IMG/VR virus record: IMGVR_UViG_3300046008_000925
Coordinates: 1-25,505 of that record
Length of the DNA: 25,505 nucleotides
Reading direction: 5' to 3' (one strand)
Origin: a virus
Under the pieces are notes generated by a model. It saw only the letters and a program-made list of their open reading frames with translations. It was not told the origin of the DNA and ran no database searches. Below, piece after piece: positions 4,566 through 18,043 of the stretch. A program made the position numbers and the translations under genes. How positions within the stretch are numbered: the first letter of the stretch is position 1; each line of letters starts with the position of its first letter.

Positions 4566-5324
4566 ATGTCAAACGAAGTTACAAACAAATCCCCATTCCC
4601 AACTGAAATAGTTGAATTACCTTCTAAAGGTTTAGTCTATCCATCAACAAATCCGCTTTCAAGTGGAAAAATTGAAATGAAATATATGACTGCTGCTCAT
4701 GAAGATATTTTAACGAACCAAAGTTATATTCAAAACGGTACTGTTTTGGATAAATTGATTGAATCCCTCATAGTATCAAAGATTAATTATGGAGATATTA
4801 TAGTTGGTGATAAAAATGCATTACTAATAGCAGCCCGTGTTTTAGGATATGGAAAAGATTACGAATTTACTTACAAAGGAGAAAATGTAACTGTAGATTT
4901 AAGTACATTAGAACCTAAACCCATTGACGAAAGCTTATTTACTCCTGGTAAAAACGAATTCGAATATGAATTACCGGCTTCAGGTACTAAAATTACCTTT
5001 AAGTTATTAACTCATAGTGATGAAAATAAAATCAATCAAGAACTTCAGGGGTTAAAGAAAATTAATAAAAACGCTTCACCAGAATCATCTACTAGGTTTA
5101 AATATATGATTACATCAGTTAATGGAGACAGCACAACAAAAACAATCAGAGAATTCGTTGATAATTATTTTTTAGCTAAAGATACTAGATCACTTCGAGA
5201 ATATATTAAGTCAATCCAACCCGATATTGATATGAAGTTTGATTTTGAAGGTCCAAATGGCTTAGAGGAGGGCTTAACTATCCCTATGGGGATTAGCTTT
5301 TTTTGGCCTGACGCAAGAATATAG
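4566..5324 (+). CDS. 26: gp26-like baseplate hub assembly / tail chaperone protein
   Basis: A 252-residue protein. The block IVELPSKGLVYPSTNPLSSG, IEMKYMTAAHEDILTN, then TVLDKLIESLI and IIVGDKNALLIAARVLGYG is characteristic of T4-like gp26 hub-assembly proteins, and the ending PMGISFFWPDARI fits the family's Phe-Phe-Trp-Pro C-terminus. In T4, genes 26 and 51 lie directly before 27-28-29, and neither product is retained in the mature baseplate, so they act in assembly. Here the gene sits just before a gp51-like frame and the tape measure, the position of tail assembly chaperones in other tailed phages. A run of seven T at 5298-5304, eight codons before the stop, may send some ribosomes into the next frame. 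Confidence 0.8.
   Translation: MSNEVTNKSPFPTEIVELPSKGLVYPSTNPLSSGKIEMKYMTAAHEDILTNQSYIQNGTVLDKLIESLIVSKINYGDIIVGDKNALLIAARVLGYGKDYEFTYKGENVTVDLSTLEPKPIDESLFTPGKNEFEYELPASGTKITFKLLTHSDENKINQELQGLKKINKNASPESSTRFKYMITSVNGDSTTKTIREFVDNYFLAKDTRSLREYIKSIQPDIDMKFDFEGPNGLEEGLTIPMGISFFWPDARI
5298..5304 (+). other. Candidate programmed frameshift site joining gp26- and gp51-like frames
   Basis: TTTTTTT, read as TTT TTT TGG in the gp26 frame. The downstream frame is open from 5278 to 5598 and overlaps the end of gp26, whose stop is 5322-5324. Sliding by +1 (or -2) on the T run gives ...ISFF then GLTQEYRLYLFSQIHEIVF and runs into the gp51-like protein; a -1 shift reaches a stop within three codons. See findings. 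Confidence 0.5.
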
Positions 5325-5400
5325 ACTTTACCTATTTTCTCAAATTCATGAAATAGTATTTCACGGGAATGGTGGCTATGATTGGGATACCATCTATAAT

Positions 5401-5598
5401 ATGCCTATTTGGTTACGAAAGTTTACATTTAATAAGATTAAAGAATACTACGATAAACAAAATAAAAATACTCAAGACGAAGATTCATGGACTAACAAAT
5501 CAGGAGCAGCGGCCCAACACTCATCTCAAAATGTAAAAGTACCGGATTTTATCAGTAAATCCCCACAAACATACCAAACTAAGGCATCGCGAAAGTGA
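5401..5598 (+). CDS. 51: gp51-like hub assembly protein, probably expressed by frameshift
   Basis: From the first ATG the product is 65 residues, starting MPIWLRKFTFNKIKEYYDKQ and ending in a polar tail. The same frame stays open upstream to 5278 and encodes EYRLYLFSQIHEIVF, HGNGGYDWDTIYN directly before this methionine. From memory, the whole stretch (hydrophobic helix, GGYDW-YNMP turn, LR-F-K-EYYDK helix) is one conserved unit in gp51-like and tail-chaperone proteins, so starting at 5401 would cut the domain in half. No A-rich leader or promoter motif precedes the ATG. I infer production as a C-terminal extension of gp26. Its stop lies inside the terminator stem. An independent short protein remains possible. 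Confidence 0.65.
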   Translation: MPIWLRKFTFNKIKEYYDKQNKNTQDEDSWTNKSGAAAQHSSQNVKVPDFISKSPQTYQTKASRK

Positions 5599-5606
5599 TG
5601 CCTTTT
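5581..5606 (+). terminator. Intrinsic terminator after gp51-like frame
   Basis: AAGGCATCGC (5581-5590) pairs with GTGATGCCTT (5595-5604), one G-T wobble, closing a GAAA tetraloop of the very stable GNRA type, followed by TT then AATA. The stop codon of the gp51-like frame (5596-5598) is within the stem. The T-tract is short, so efficiency is uncertain. Confidence 0.75.
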
Positions 5607-5607
5607 A

Positions 5608-5621
5608 ATATTTATTATAAA
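5608..5621 (+). promoter_or_regulatory. Candidate late promoter motif before tape measure gene
   Basis: ATATTTATTATAAA, one base off the consensus, starting directly behind the terminator. TATTTATT begins 25 bases before the ATG at 5634. Its terminator-promoter placement repeats that before the gp26-like gene. Confidence 0.45.
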
Positions 5622-5633
5622 TACATTTATTAA

Positions 5634-8033
5634 ATGACAGATCCTAAGGAAAATCAAGGCCAAAATCAAGACGCTTCAAAAGTTCAAGAAACAATTAAAT
5701 TTCAAAAAGAAGAAATTGATCTACTACGTAAAAGACTAAGTCTTCAGGAAGAAGGATATTCTTTATCTAGTTCATATTTAGAATCTTTAAAAGAGGTATT
5801 AGGAGTTAAAACTAAATTAACTGCTTCTGAAAATGACTTATATAGTATTGGTAAACAAATTAATAAATCCCTTCTTTCTCAAAAAGGAGGATATGATAAT
5901 GTTAAAGATTTAACTAAACAAATAAAATCAAATCAAGACTTATTAAACAAATCATCAATAGCAGAAATAGGTTTAGTTAAGTCATTAGGAGAAGAAAAGG
6001 CAAAACAAGTAGACCAATCTTTTTCTGAACTAGTTACTATAGCCAACAAAAGTAAAAGACTTGAAGAGTATTATAAGCGAATGGAAAATGGGGAAAAAGT
6101 AGAAGTAAAAATATTAGAAGGTCTTAAGAACCAAATAGCAGCACATGAAGAAAACATTAAAAGAGCAGAAGAATCATTAAATCCTCTACAAAAACAATTA
6201 CTATATTCAAAGGCACAGGCTTTAGAATTAAAAAAACAAAACAACGAAAGAGAGAAGGAAGAAGAATATCTTAATAAAGTTAAAAACACAACAGGAGTAA
6301 TAGGAGCATTAATGGCTGGTATGAAGGAAATTCCATTCATAAAAGATCTTCCAGGAATAAATACAGCTCTAGAGGATGTTAGAAAAGAAATTATAAGAAT
6401 ACAAGTAGAAGAAGGTAGAACTGTTGGTAAAACCGAAGCTATGGGGATGGCATTTAAACATATCGGTAAGTCTATGAAAGAAAATTTACTTGATCCTACA
6501 GTACTTGTATCAGCGGCAGTAGGATTAATAGTAAAAGGATTTTTATCATTAAACGAAGCCCAAACAAATTTTGCAAGAACAACTGGATATACTGCAAGTA
6601 GGTGGGATGCTACAAGTACAAGTGTAACTACACTTTCTGATTATATTAAAACCGCTAATGATTTAACTAAACAATTAGGATTTAATGCTGATTTAATTTT
6701 TACTTCTAAAACTTTACAAGAAGCAACTGAAATGGTTGAACTTATGGGGATGAGTAGTGAAGAGGCAGGTAAATTAGCTATGCTTTCTAAATTAAATGGA
6801 ACTGAATTAAAAAAAGCAAATGAAAGTGTAATTAAAACAGCAGGTAATTTTAATAAAACTAATAGAACAGCAATAAACCAAAAACAAATATTAAGTGATG
6901 TAGCTAATACATCTAATGTTATTGCAGTTAATTTAGGGGGAAATGCTTCAAAAATAGCCCAAGCTAACTTAGAGGCAAGAAGATTTGGTTTATCATTAGA
7001 AAAAGCAGACCAAATAGCAAGTTCATTACTAGATTTTGAATCATCTATCTCAGCAGAAATTGAAGCCGAATTATTAACTGGAAAAGATTTAAATCTTGAA
7101 AAGGCTAGATTATTAGCTTTAAATGGTGAAACAGCTGAACTTACTAAAGAAATAGGCCAAAATCAAGATATAATAAGTGCATATACTTCAGGAAATAGAT
7201 TACAACAAGAAGCAGTAGCCAAATCTGTTGGTTTACAAAGAGAAGATATTGCTAAAATGATAATAGACCAAAAAGCACAATTAGGATTAACAGATGAACA
7301 AGTACAAAAAGCATCTGGAATGAATGAAGAAGACTTCAAAAGACTATCAGTTCAGGAAAGTATAAATAAATCAATGAGTAAAATGGGGGAAGCATTAGCG
7401 GGTCCATTAGAAATGTTAGCATCTATGGTAGCTGGTGTAACCCAATTTTCAGGTATTATAACTGCAGTAATAGGATCTTTTGTAATATTTAAAGGTATTC
7501 AGTTATCTATATTAGGAATACAAAAAATATCTGCTACTTATGAAGCTTTAAAATTAGGTTATGCTACTGCTCAAAGAGGAGCAGCATTAGGTTATAATGG
7601 TATTTTATTAGCTAGACAAGCAATACTAAGTGGAGAATTAGCAAAAAGTATAGGTATAGCAGCTGCTTACGCTATAGCAAATCCTTTTGCTGCTTTGGCT
7701 GGATTAGCAATAGCTGCCGGGGTAGGATTGGTAGTATATTCTCAAATGAAGGATGGTGTTATTGACCCTAAAAAAGGCCCTATAGTATCTGGAGAATTTG
7801 GTACAGTGCAATTAAATCCTAATGATCAAATAGTAGCAGGAACCGATTTAGCAGGTAGTAAAAAACCAAAAGGTGGTGGATCTCAACCTTCAATAGATAT
7901 AACTCCTATGGTACAAGAACTTCAAGCTGTAAAAGCGGTTTTAGGTCAAATCCTAGCAAAAGATACTACAGTTAAAATGGATAGTAATAAAGTAGGACAA
8001 TCCCATAATATTGGAGCAGTTAAAGTTCAATAA
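5634..8033 (+). CDS. 29: Tape measure protein
   Basis: A 799-residue protein in the gp29 position, longer than T4 gp29 (590). Residues 1-220 are almost entirely Lys/Glu/Gln-rich helix with coiled-coil character. A first hydrophobic stretch is at about 291-307 (LVSAAVGLIVKGFL), followed by a long Ala/Lys/Glu helix region, then hydrophobic segments at about 608-628 and 672-705 (AIANPFAALAGLAIAAGVGL). The C-terminus is Gly/Pro-rich then helical. Long helix plus late hydrophobic segments is the hallmark of tape measures, which set tail length and may insert in the membrane during DNA entry. At roughly 0.15 nm per residue a tail near 120 nm is predicted, an inference. It follows the gp26/51 assembly pair, as tape measures do. 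Confidence 0.85.
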   Translation: MTDPKENQGQNQDASKVQETIKFQKEEIDLLRKRLSLQEEGYSLSSSYLESLKEVLGVKTKLTASENDLYSIGKQINKSLLSQKGGYDNVKDLTKQIKSNQDLLNKSSIAEIGLVKSLGEEKAKQVDQSFSELVTIANKSKRLEEYYKRMENGEKVEVKILEGLKNQIAAHEENIKRAEESLNPLQKQLLYSKAQALELKKQNNEREKEEEYLNKVKNTTGVIGALMAGMKEIPFIKDLPGINTALEDVRKEIIRIQVEEGRTVGKTEAMGMAFKHIGKSMKENLLDPTVLVSAAVGLIVKGFLSLNEAQTNFARTTGYTASRWDATSTSVTTLSDYIKTANDLTKQLGFNADLIFTSKTLQEATEMVELMGMSSEEAGKLAMLSKLNGTELKKANESVIKTAGNFNKTNRTAINQKQILSDVANTSNVIAVNLGGNASKIAQANLEARRFGLSLEKADQIASSLLDFESSISAEIEAELLTGKDLNLEKARLLALNGETAELTKEIGQNQDIISAYTSGNRLQQEAVAKSVGLQREDIAKMIIDQKAQLGLTDEQVQKASGMNEEDFKRLSVQESINKSMSKMGEALAGPLEMLASMVAGVTQFSGIITAVIGSFVIFKGIQLSILGIQKISATYEALKLGYATAQRGAALGYNGILLARQAILSGELAKSIGIAAAYAIANPFAALAGLAIAAGVGLVVYSQMKDGVIDPKKGPIVSGEFGTVQLNPNDQIVAGTDLAGSKKPKGGGSQPSIDITPMVQELQAVKAVLGQILAKDTTVKMDSNKVGQSHNIGAVKVQ

Positions 8034-14605: not shown

Positions 14606-14857
14606 ATGAACCCAACAGAATTTAAAAAACTAATCCGAGAAGAAGTACGTAAAGTATTAAAAGAAGAAAAACCAACCAATGATATGGTTAAAGAATTTTG
14701 GAGCATAATGGTTGAAAATCAACCTGAAGATGTAATCCGGATTTTAGTTGGATTAACTGATGGTAGTTTACCATTTTCTAAATTTAGTTCAGATGTAGCA
14801 AATGATGTTTATGATTCATTCTCGGATGAATTATATGATGACGAAGACGAAGATTAA
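14606..14857 (+). CDS. Small acidic protein with LIREE-type N-terminus
   Basis: An 83-residue protein. Residues 1-22 (MNPTEFKKLIREEVRKVLKE) form a strongly basic-amphipathic helix containing Ile-Arg-Glu at 10-12; the rest is acidic, ending in DELYDDEDED. The N-terminal helix recalls a leader seen on several proteins of T4-like phages of this type, and it resembles T4 capsid-targeting peptides, which end in (Leu/Ile)-X-Glu and are cut by the prohead protease. It stands alone between a promoter region and a terminator, so it is an independent unit. An internal head protein or a small regulator would both fit; function unknown. Confidence 0.6.
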   Translation: MNPTEFKKLIREEVRKVLKEEKPTNDMVKEFWSIMVENQPEDVIRILVGLTDGSLPFSKFSSDVANDVYDSFSDELYDDEDED

Positions 14858-15025: not shown

Positions 15026-16285
15026 ATGTTTTATATTATTGAGAATTATGAACAATTAAAGGAATTTTACTACAAGGAAATTGAAGAGGCATTTGTAGAA
15101 ATAATTCCATTTAATGATTATATTCATCCAACAATAAACAATGTATCCTTAATTTATATTAGACCAATAAACGATAATAAAGGTTATATATTGTGTGTAG
15201 AACATAATGATACATTACAATTAAGTATAAACGCTATATCAACGATTCTTAACAAGATCAATAAAATATATGTACGAGATAAGAAAGAGTTTTTACACTA
15301 CCTTATACACCCGAATATAGTTGATATCACGTTAGAACATATTTATGAGAGGCCCACAACCTCTGCTCATGATTATTTTTATCGTAATTATCAACATATT
15401 GATGATCTTAATAAAATTGTACCTATATCCAAACATTATGAAGTTTGTGAAAAAATATTTAACGATCTAAAAGAAAAAATAAATGAACCAATTAACTTAT
15501 TCTATAACGATAGAGCATCCTTGGTGTTTAACGCAATTGAACGGAATGGTTTACGAATACAAAGAGAAAAATTCAAAGACCACTTCTATCATGTTGATGC
15601 CGATTACATATATAGTCAATACAACTTTAAAACAACAACAAGAAGACCAGCCAACAGATTTGGGGGTGTAAATTATGCTGCTCTGAATAAAGAAAATGGA
15701 AGCAGAGAAGTATTTATCCCAAGAAATGATAAACTAGTAGAAATAGACTTATCAGCATTCCACCCTACTCTAATTAGTAAACTTATGGATTATGACTTCG
15801 GAGATAAGAATATATATCATGAAATTGTGGAAGAATGTAATGTAAGTTATGATGATGCCAAAAAGATAGTATTTAAAAACCTTAATGGTAATATTTTTGA
15901 AGAATACAAAAATGTAGAATTTTTCTCCCGTCTTCAACATTTCAAAGATAAATTATGGGAACAATTTCAGAATGAAGGATTTATTGAAGATAAAACAAGT
16001 GGATGGAAGTTTTACAAAGATAAATTGGAAAATATGAATCCAAATAAGCTACTAAATTATCTACTTCAGACGACTGAAACTTCAACAAATATCAACATTA
16101 TATGGGATATGTTGAAAATATTAAGAGGTAAAAATACAAAACTAATACTTTTTACTTACGATGCATTTTTATTAGATTTGGATGAAGAGGAGGAAGATTT
16201 GATAGATAAAATATTGGAAATATTTAAAACATATAAATTCGATGTCAAAATTAAAACAGGTTACAATTACAATAATTTAAAATAA
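15026..16285 (+). CDS. Short divergent family A DNA polymerase-like protein
   Basis: A 419-residue protein. Residues about 194-235 hold the family A run before motif A: YSQYNFKTTTRRPANRFGGV and NYAALNKENGSREVFIP. Motif A is LVEIDLSAFHPTL with catalytic Asp241. Motif B, AKKIVFKNLNGN at 278-289, aligns to the E. coli Pol I finger helix with Lys758, Phe762 and Gly767 kept (Lys279, Phe283, Gly288), but Arg754 is Tyr275 and Tyr766 is Asn287. Motif C is LFTYDAFLLD with Asp379 where His-Asp-Glu is usual. Both metal-binding Asp are present. There is no recognisable 5' nuclease, and the N-terminal 190 residues show no clear exonuclease motifs. The size is about two thirds of a Klenow fragment. It may act in repair or gap filling, or be non-catalytic; T4-like phages replicate with a family B enzyme, not seen here. 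Confidence 0.75.
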   Translation: MFYIIENYEQLKEFYYKEIEEAFVEIIPFNDYIHPTINNVSLIYIRPINDNKGYILCVEHNDTLQLSINAISTILNKINKIYVRDKKEFLHYLIHPNIVDITLEHIYERPTTSAHDYFYRNYQHIDDLNKIVPISKHYEVCEKIFNDLKEKINEPINLFYNDRASLVFNAIERNGLRIQREKFKDHFYHVDADYIYSQYNFKTTTRRPANRFGGVNYAALNKENGSREVFIPRNDKLVEIDLSAFHPTLISKLMDYDFGDKNIYHEIVEECNVSYDDAKKIVFKNLNGNIFEEYKNVEFFSRLQHFKDKLWEQFQNEGFIEDKTSGWKFYKDKLENMNPNKLLNYLLQTTETSTNINIIWDMLKILRGKNTKLILFTYDAFLLDLDEEEEDLIDKILEIFKTYKFDVKIKTGYNYNNLK

Positions 16286-16776: not shown

Positions 16777-17373
16777 ATGATAAAACTTTTAGACCTCTTA
16801 CGCGAAGAAAAGCTTGATATCCTTAAACCTAGACGCTCTGGGGAAGAACGTCAACAAAATTTTGCAATCGCTACTCAAAAAAAGATTGAGCAATATATAA
16901 AGGATGGCGGAAAAGGTGATCTTGATTTAGAAAATACCCCAATTACATCATTACCAAATGATCTAACAGTTGGCAGTGATCTTAATTTAATAAATACTCC
17001 AATTTCCTTACTACCAAATGGTTTAACGGTTGGCGGTAATCTTGATTTAAGATATACTCTAATTTCTTCATTACCAAATAGTCTAAAGGTTAGAGGTTCT
17101 CTTGATTTAAGATATACTCTAATTTCTTCATTACCAAATGGTCTAAAGATTGAAGGTTATCTTACTTTAGATAATACCAAAATTACCTCATTACCAAATG
17201 GTTTAACAGTTGGCGGTAATCTTACTTTAGGAAATACCCCAATTACATCATTACCAAATGATTTAAAGGTTGAGGGTGATCTTTATTTAGAAAATACTCC
17301 AATAAGTAAAAAATATTCTAGGGAAGAAATTAAAAAAATGGTTCCCGGAGTAAAAGGTAATATTTATACATAG
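16777..17373 (+). CDS. Leucine-rich-type repeat protein, copy 1
   Basis: A 198-residue protein. Residues 1-48 are a charged leader starting MIKLLDLLREEKLDILKPRR. Residues 49-168 are six exact-length 20-residue repeats of the form LDLENTPITSLPNDLTVGSD, then a partial repeat and a C-terminal cap (KKYSREEIKKMVPGVKGNIY). The repeats (L-L-NTPI-SLPN-L-VGG) should stack as a solenoid with a Leu/Ile core; repeats 3 and 4 share an unusual RYTLISS stretch. Such proteins occur in many T4-like phages but have no established role; binding a protein partner is likely. The ATG lies 15 bases after the previous stop, with TATAAATA at 16763-16770. A paralogue follows directly. Confidence 0.85.
   Translation: MIKLLDLLREEKLDILKPRRSGEERQQNFAIATQKKIEQYIKDGGKGDLDLENTPITSLPNDLTVGSDLNLINTPISLLPNGLTVGGNLDLRYTLISSLPNSLKVRGSLDLRYTLISSLPNGLKIEGYLTLDNTKITSLPNGLTVGGNLTLGNTPITSLPNDLKVEGDLYLENTPISKKYSREEIKKMVPGVKGNIYT
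16921..17301 (+). repeat. Six 60-base tandem repeats plus a partial, in copy 1
   Basis: Six units of exactly 60 bases (16921-17280) and 21 bases of a seventh. Each opens CTTNNTTTA and carries a near-constant TTACCAAATG at mid-unit. Units 3 and 4 (17041-17160) are the most alike. Exact unit length keeps the frame, so copy number can change by recombination without breaking the gene. Confidence 0.9.
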
Positions 17374-17386
17374 ACATAACCAACTA

Positions 17387-18043
17387 ATGATAAAACTTTT
17401 AGACCTTTTACGCGAAGAGAAGCTTGATATCCTTAAACCTAGGCGCTCTGGGGAAGAACGTCAACAAAATTTTGCAATTGCTACTCAAAAAAAGATTGAG
17501 CAGTATATGAAAGATGGAGGAAAAGGTAATCTCGATTTAGAAAATACCCCAATTACTACATTACCTAATGGTCTAAAGGTTGATGGCTATCTTAATTTAT
17601 ATGGTACCAAAATTACATCATTACCAAATGGTTTAACGGTTGGAGGTGATCTTTATCTATCCAATACCCCAATTACCACATTGTCAAATGGTTTAACGGT
17701 TGGAGGTGATCTTGATTTATATGGTACCAAAATTACATCATTGCCAAATGATTTAACGGTTGGTGGCTATCTTTATTTAAGAAATACTCCAATTACATCA
17801 TTACCAAATGGTTTAACGGTTGGTGGCCATCTTGATTTAAGAAATACTAAAATTACCTCATTGCCAAATGGTCTAAAGGTTGGCGGTCATCTTGATTTAT
17901 CCAATACTCCAATTACATCATTACCAAATGGTTTAACGGTTGGAGGTTACCTTTATTTAGAAAATACTCCAATAAGTAAAAAATATTCTAAGGAAGAAAT
18001 TAAAAAAATGGTTCCCGGAGTAAAAGGTAATATTTATATATAA
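17387..18043 (+). CDS. Leucine-rich-type repeat protein, copy 2
   Basis: A 218-residue paralogue of the preceding gene, 13 bases downstream, longer by exactly one 20-residue repeat. Its leader (residues 1-48) differs from copy 1 only at Ile41Met and Asp48Asn. Residues 49-188 are seven full repeats such as LNLYGTKITSLPNGLTVGGD, alternating Thr-Pro-Ile and Thr-Lys-Ile versions, then the same cap ending KMVPGVKGNIYI. The alternation suggests growth by doubling of a two-repeat unit. TATTTATACA at 17361-17370, inside the end of copy 1, is 26 bases before this ATG, the spacing of the late motif, though it also encodes the conserved cap. Function unknown; probably a binding scaffold. Confidence 0.85.
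   Translation: MIKLLDLLREEKLDILKPRRSGEERQQNFAIATQKKIEQYMKDGGKGNLDLENTPITTLPNGLKVDGYLNLYGTKITSLPNGLTVGGDLYLSNTPITTLSNGLTVGGDLDLYGTKITSLPNDLTVGGYLYLRNTPITSLPNGLTVGGHLDLRNTKITSLPNGLKVGGHLDLSNTPITSLPNGLTVGGYLYLENTPISKKYSKEEIKKMVPGVKGNIYI
17531..17971 (+). repeat. Seven 60-base tandem repeats plus a partial, in copy 2
   Basis: Seven units of exactly 60 bases (17531-17950) and 21 bases of an eighth. Units 2 and 4 both contain ATGGTACCAAAATTACATCA, and units alternate in type, showing internal duplication. Together with 16777-17373 the genes form a tandem direct duplication of about 600 bases. Confidence 0.9.

Follow-up and report, generated by a model that had tools for sequence, protein, structure and literature searches.

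Recombination among tandem leucine-rich repeat genes bearing a putative capsid-targeting tag in T4-like phages

The DNA analysed here, which we call the window, is the virus record IMGVR_UViG_3300046008_000925 of IMG/VR (25,505 bases), and it carries two tandem genes for leucine-rich repeat (LRR) proteins. We suggest that these are binding proteins that diversify by recombination, are packaged in the phage head and are ejected from it. The diversification can be read directly from related phages and the packaging would follow from the N-terminus; for the reading as a whole we see about an even chance. Each protein would begin with a tag of about 10 residues, closed by an (L/I)-x-E prohead-protease site, and continue with a helical N-cap, 20-residue LRRs in variable number and a constant C-cap. 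The exposed strand-side residues of the LRRs would vary under selection. Homologous recombination between genes and between units deletes, duplicates and fuses LRR genes without loss of frame, and as a result the LRR sets of close relatives differ. By means of the tag the protein would enter the prohead core, where a gp21-type protease would remove the tag, and the mature LRR protein would be ejected with the DNA to bind a host molecule, like the internal proteins of T4. In many relatives the LRR genes appear to be coupled to a gene for about 249 amino acids, a probable partner. The main features of the pair are the following.

16777..17373, plus strand: LRR gene copy 1, 198 amino acids (open reading frame (ORF) list, alignment with copy 2)
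17387..18043, plus strand: LRR gene copy 2, 218 amino acids (Pfam LRR_4 and LRR_1 above cut-off; AlphaFold2 model)
16777..16806, plus strand: copy 1 residues 1-10, MIKLLDLLRE, putative capsid-targeting and prohead-protease tag with L8-x-E10 (from leaders of relatives and the T4 rule)
17387..17416, plus strand: copy 2 residues 1-10, the same putative tag on the same basis
16840..16902, plus strand: copy 1 residues 22-42, leader helix as predicted solenoid N-cap (via alignment with copy 2)
17450..17512, plus strand: copy 2 residues 22-42, leader helix as predicted solenoid N-cap (secondary structure of the AlphaFold2 model)
16915..17274, plus strand: copy 1, six full 60-bp LRR units
17525..17944, plus strand: copy 2, seven full 60-bp LRR units
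17275..17370, plus strand: copy 1, half-unit and C-cap (ENTPISKKYSREEIKKMVPGVKGNIYT)
17945..18040, plus strand: copy 2, half-unit and C-cap (ENTPISKKYSKEEIKKMVPGVKGNIYI)

The first-pass annotation had described two adjacent genes with a common leader and cap that differ by one 20-residue (60-bp) unit, and this was borne out. The copies lie on the same strand with 13 bp between them, and copy 1 has six full units and a half-unit in the cap, compared to seven and a half-unit in copy 2. The unit length is exactly 60 bp, as stated there (Tandem Repeats Finder periods 60/120/180, indels 0-2%), and the two proteins are 78% identical. The internal doublings were also found again: units 3 and 4 of copy 1 differ at 6 of 60 bases, compared to 9-18 in most other unit pairs, and Thr-Pro (TP) and Thr-Lys (TK) units alternate in copy 2, where units 2 and 4 differ at 6 of 60 bases and the 120-bp period scores higher than the 60-bp period (540 versus 473). 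A recount of the first 144 bp gave the same nine differences, of which seven are synonymous and two (I41M and D48N) are not. From these differences it had been concluded that selection followed a duplication that was not very recent. Selection on the leader is supported, because the non-synonymous rate (dN) is 0.0175 and the synonymous rate (dS) 0.295 by the Nei-Gojobori method (dN/dS 0.06), which suggests purifying selection. The age of the duplication needs a refinement. The cap has two non-synonymous changes and no synonymous one, and because its dS is 0, versus 0.295 in the leader, the parts of the pair probably differ in age. The pair looks like a mosaic, its cap having been homogenised later than the rest, and not like a duplication with a single age.

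A first scan of viral contigs gave 21 relatives, and among these and the loci found later the number of LRR genes and units varied while no disrupted frame was met. In the relative L004, which is nearly the same phage as that of the window (0/3000 and 7/4900 differences in the flanks), there is one LRR gene, a chimera of copies 1 and 2. The chimera agrees with copy 1 at each of the 14 informative sites up to base 185 and with copy 2 at each of the 20 listed ones from base 191 on. The crossover therefore falls between these two sites.

16962..16966, plus strand: L004 crossover interval on the copy 1 side, between informative sites 185 and 191 (copy 2 side 17572-17576)

In L035, which has three LRR genes, gene 2 consists of the first 335 bp of gene 3 and the last 323 bp of gene 1, with a switch point within 7 bp; L079, whose 249 gene is identical to that of L035, is without the chimeric gene. 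Read base by base, the L004 gene is the deletion product of an unequal crossover, and gene 2 of L035 is a product of the duplication type. The L004 gene is not the unduplicated ancestor, because the two copies are too diverged for this. In L008, compared to L005, exactly units 23-25 are missing between flanks with 0/1982 and 0/1900 differences. LRR genes also differ in number and units among relatives with a 99-100% identical 249 gene (L025/L026/L027, L034/L035/L079, L057 or L058 compared to L061, L060/L066 and L062/L063). A change of LRR gene and repeat number by recombination is thus well supported by the comparison of these sequences; for the repeat number, the first-pass annotation had supposed it. 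Apart from any claim of delivery, the two products document, to the base, the deletion and duplication types of unequal crossing-over in phage populations in nature.

A gene resembling GIY-YIG homing endonucleases lies directly before the LRR-249-LRR block in L005 (3019-3645), and likewise in L006 and L008; it may promote local recombination. Other arrays were seen in L016 (2823-6513), with at least five tandem LRR genes that have another leader (MKPNLIKIFKFIEDKTGKKL) and F-x-E in place of (L/I)xE, and in the 90-kb contig L023 (2311-10434), with four more LRR paralogues of another repeat type (CTGLKALPDGLKVGG) and clearly different repeat numbers.

The repeats of both window genes are leucine-rich repeats, and the predicted fold is a solenoid. 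Copy 2 matches the Pfam families LRR_4 (30.9 bits, cut-off 27) and LRR_1 (29 bits, cut-off 20.6), and copy 1 alone had no Pfam match. The AlphaFold2 model of copy 2 has a mean predicted local distance difference test score (pLDDT) of 90.9, lower at residues 1-20 (about 60), and places strands at unit positions 3-4 and 18-19. Its best solved structural match (VIA-align) is 8z5u_0, with Z 21.9, a root-mean-square deviation of 2.8 over 180 aligned residues and 36% identity, followed by SHOC2, a Leptospira LRR protein, YopM and IpaH/SspH domains. The 8z5u chain 0 is a polar flagellar motor protein with the same 20-residue LP..L.VGG.L.L unit, but it is a structural motor part and is without the phage leader. 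The LRR domains of the bacterial effectors IpaH, SspH and YopM belong to the same broad class (20-22 residues, LPxxL) with a related fold, and the phage proteins are likewise proposed to be injected binders; unlike them, the phage genes have no ligase domain, share only 15-25% identity and would be delivered via the virion rather than a secretion system.

Among 54 distinct units of the close clade, positions L3, L5, I10, L13, N15 and L17 are invariant. At positions 2, 4, 6, 7 and 9 the proportion of non-synonymous differences (pN) is 0.42 and that of synonymous differences (pS) 0.16, compared to 0.07 and 0.31 elsewhere. The pooled pN/pS of 2.6 at these positions, versus 0.22 elsewhere, is biased upward because the five positions were selected after the variation was visible; set against the pS of all positions, their pN is still 1.46 times as high (bootstrap 1.34-1.56). 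When mapped by the standard LRR consensus rather than by measured coordinates, the variable positions fall in or beside the predicted concave strand face. This supports the diversification of surface residues that had been expected. Since NAT is the form of several variable codons, we weighed a diversity-generating retroelement as the cause and rejected it: in the window no reverse transcriptase came to notice, and the NAT-type codons change almost only at their first base. The variable lymphocyte receptors of lampreys are likewise LRR arrays whose length and concave-face residues vary between constant caps (weak sequence match), but they are assembled somatically in an animal, whereas the phage genes change by germline recombination and no immune role is implied.

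The N-terminus is what points to the phage head. Internal proteins of T4 reach the prohead via an N-terminal capsid-targeting sequence of 10-19 residues; ten residues are enough for IPIII, residues 8 and 10 control processing, and gp21 cleaves after (L/I)-x-E (PMC9026906). The internal proteins of T-even phages are diverse defence proteins with only the capsid-targeting sequence in common (PMC3012670). Both window copies have L8-R9-E10, so that the putative propeptide ends as this rule prescribes. The (L/I)xE site is kept in 67 of 70 LRR proteins and 27 of 30 distinct leaders in spite of changing sequence and length around it, compared to a mean of 7.9 of 30 in shuffled leaders (none of 2000 shuffles reached 27).

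The tag form MIKL.D(I/L)L.E also occurs on unrelated ORFs of the same phages (in the tag lists of G002 and G006), including a Zeta-toxin/AAA-like kinase and a weakly nucleotidase-like protein. Other recurring N-termini are MKKSELRQLIKEE, MKKQILSEQFRRMQKLAGIINE and MDNFDLKKYLAEG, and an unrelated ORF of the window itself bears another putative tag.

14606..14857, plus strand: 83-amino-acid ORF with another putative tag, MNPTEFKKLIREEVRKVLKE (ORF list, tag lists)

Tags swap between homologous bodies. An LRR body in G002 (387-791) bears a LIKEE-type tag, a PTQNIELN protein occurs with MIKLTDILNE followed by A or with MNTFDLKKYLAE followed by G, and a CW.(S/G)Y protein with MIKLSTLLNE or with MDNFDLRKYLAE followed by G. 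In G002, ORFs with the motif at residues 8-13 are overrepresented before the terminase (12/29 versus 27/178, P 0.002) and before the polA-like gene (6/8 versus 33/199, P 0.0007), with a weaker trend in G001 (P 0.07); these P values are descriptive only, because tags had already come to notice in these regions when they were chosen. A gp21-family prohead protease is present in the relatives G001, G002, G009, G010 and G012, and G002 combines it with three LRR genes. The major capsid and scaffold proteins of the clade likewise begin with LxE or IxE. The likeness to IPI, IPII, IPIII and Alt of T4 therefore covers a short N-terminal module common to otherwise unrelated proteins, (L/I)-x-E at residues 8-10, a dispensable and variable cargo, and a gp21-family protease in the relatives. 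The differences are that the cargo here consists of LRR proteins with several recombining paralogues, that the putative targeting sequence is exchanged among at least four sequence types, and that packaging is known for T4 and inferred here. Head delivery is the best-supported reading that we infer for this N-terminus, and it is a route that the first-pass annotation had not put forward. As a separate observation, the kinase-like protein of G002 (94552-95316, L100) is a candidate injected enzyme because of its MIKL tag.

The gene for about 249 amino acids stands between two LRR genes in L005, L006, L008, L011 and L013. In a second scan, 58 loci of this gene were collected. Of the 56 with a recognised 249 ORF, 45 have an adjoining LRR gene (25 of the 32 left after dereplication), usually downstream with an overlap of 1-4 bp and with up to seven LRR genes per locus. 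A family profile matches the first half of PA5oct EST35_0205 (E 5e-9 at a nominal 100,000 sequences), a distant homologue whose record annotates virion detection by electrospray ionisation tandem mass spectrometry. The 249-amino-acid protein is probably a partner of the LRR proteins. It had no Pfam family and no PDB fold match, and its PHROG match to 'internal head protein' (E 0.004 only) was not relied on. In L011 the LRR genes on either side of it (5001-5648 and 6412-7059) are identical in every base, and the block is inserted between the tail tube and the next structural gene. Mobilisation of the 249 gene by flanking copies, as in direct-repeat transposition, was not retained as the main account, because elsewhere this gene is surrounded by as many as seven LRR genes, most of which differ from one another.

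Several points weigh against selected binders delivered by the head. Three of the 30 distinct leaders have no (L/I)xE site, and the more distant LRR genes of L016, L017 and L022 have F-x-E instead. The window is a 25.5-kb fragment without a head gene, and the protease of its own phage is for this reason unseen. In G002 there are LRR genes and no 249 gene anywhere in the record, and the five variable unit positions were chosen post hoc, as said above. PADLOC, which covers defence systems and not the full range of counter-defence, gave no match. Packaging is read from sequence alone throughout the clade; the structural proteomics paper found in a search for immuto covers other phages and holds no immuto data. 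A tag-like N-terminus is also present on an ORF among the baseplate genes (G002 79958, immuto 81525). The last two points would fit another explanation, in which the LRRs diversify as described, the N-terminus is some other exchangeable module (for tail or neck assembly, or expression, for example) and the LRR proteins, once made in the infected cell, do their work there. That the best solved fold match is a structural adaptor of the flagellar motor agrees with it as well. However, (L/I)xE at residues 8-10 is conserved despite the length changes, the tagged ORFs cluster beside head genes, and the leaders are exchanged with T4-like tags (M..F.LKKYLAE followed by G) on homologous bodies. We regard this explanation as possible, on the doubtful side.

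It is also conceivable, and in our view unlikely, that activity resides in the 249-amino-acid protein, with the LRR proteins as exchangeable partners that give it specificity or inhibit it, as in a polymorphic effector-partner module. The overlapping start and stop codons and the adjacency at most loci are consistent with this, as is the BFVD match of the 249-amino-acid model to an LRR-containing phage protein of 1130 amino acids. However, the LRR genes of the window and of L007 have no 249 gene nearby, in addition to the case of G002, and the model itself is weak (pLDDT 73, predicted template modelling score 0.47).

LRR turnover could instead be mostly neutral, arising from recombination between identical repeats in a protein that is a simple spacer or structural adaptor. 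The homogenised caps and the identical gene pair of L011 indicate that recombination alone can alter the set. We find this account rather improbable, because the framework residues are invariant in all 54 units, pN at the five variable positions exceeds the overall pS, and there was no broken LRR gene among the 75 listed, contig ends excepted. Finally, all relatives are metagenomic contigs, repeats assemble poorly and L009 and L012 end inside LRR genes, but an assembly artefact is very improbable as the source of the variation, because the copies differ, they share only 5 and 7 bp at the junctions of L004 and L035, far below assembly k-mers (which makes assembly collapse unlikely), the 67-bp tract of L008 is still below the usual read length, and separate samples yielded the same arrays (L038/L039, L047/L075).

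If LRR binders are indeed delivered by the head, the tag would be a readable sequence signal for phage proteins that are packed in the head and injected, the LRR genes would form a natural library of binders whose binding face apparently changes under selection, and it would become possible to test directly for the targets that injected proteins have in the host, which are difficult to identify. A role in host interaction or counter-defence is conceivable; by analogy with IPI of T4, host defence factors are one candidate for what the LRR faces bind. More tentatively, Flavobacterium-phage-like viruses might possess a recombination-driven repertoire of capsid-delivered LRR binders with a conserved 249-amino-acid partner. 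This would be a phage counterpart of a variable receptor family, with constant tag and caps, a selected binding face, and genes fused and duplicated between near-identical phages as they follow changing host targets.

The phage of the window is T4-like, and its tail sheath and gene order put it near Flavobacterium phage immuto. A pattern scan of GTDB genomes gave no bacterial relative of the LRR genes and therefore no host source; the leader had no match in 50,697 phage isolate records, where weak LRR-only matches alone appeared, and a literature search of partial coverage found no paper on recombining phage LRR genes. The LRR pair is placed between a 156-amino-acid ORF, which follows a family-A-polymerase-like ORF, and a gp32-like single-strand binding protein. 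The same slot holds one LRR gene in L004, an LRR gene and a tagged 255-amino-acid gene in L007, a 112-amino-acid ORF starting with MKELNTFRKYLAEGE in G001 and a 171-amino-acid ORF starting with MENFDLKKFLVEN in immuto, and it is empty in G002. All its occupants start with an (L/I)xE-type tag, that of immuto in the L-V-E form. The family-A-polymerase-like ORF (window 15026-16285, 419 amino acids, with DLSAFHP and YDAFLL) had no Pfam match; the ORF at its position in immuto carries the annotation 'DNA polymerase family A', and several relatives have such an ORF upstream of the cargo slot.
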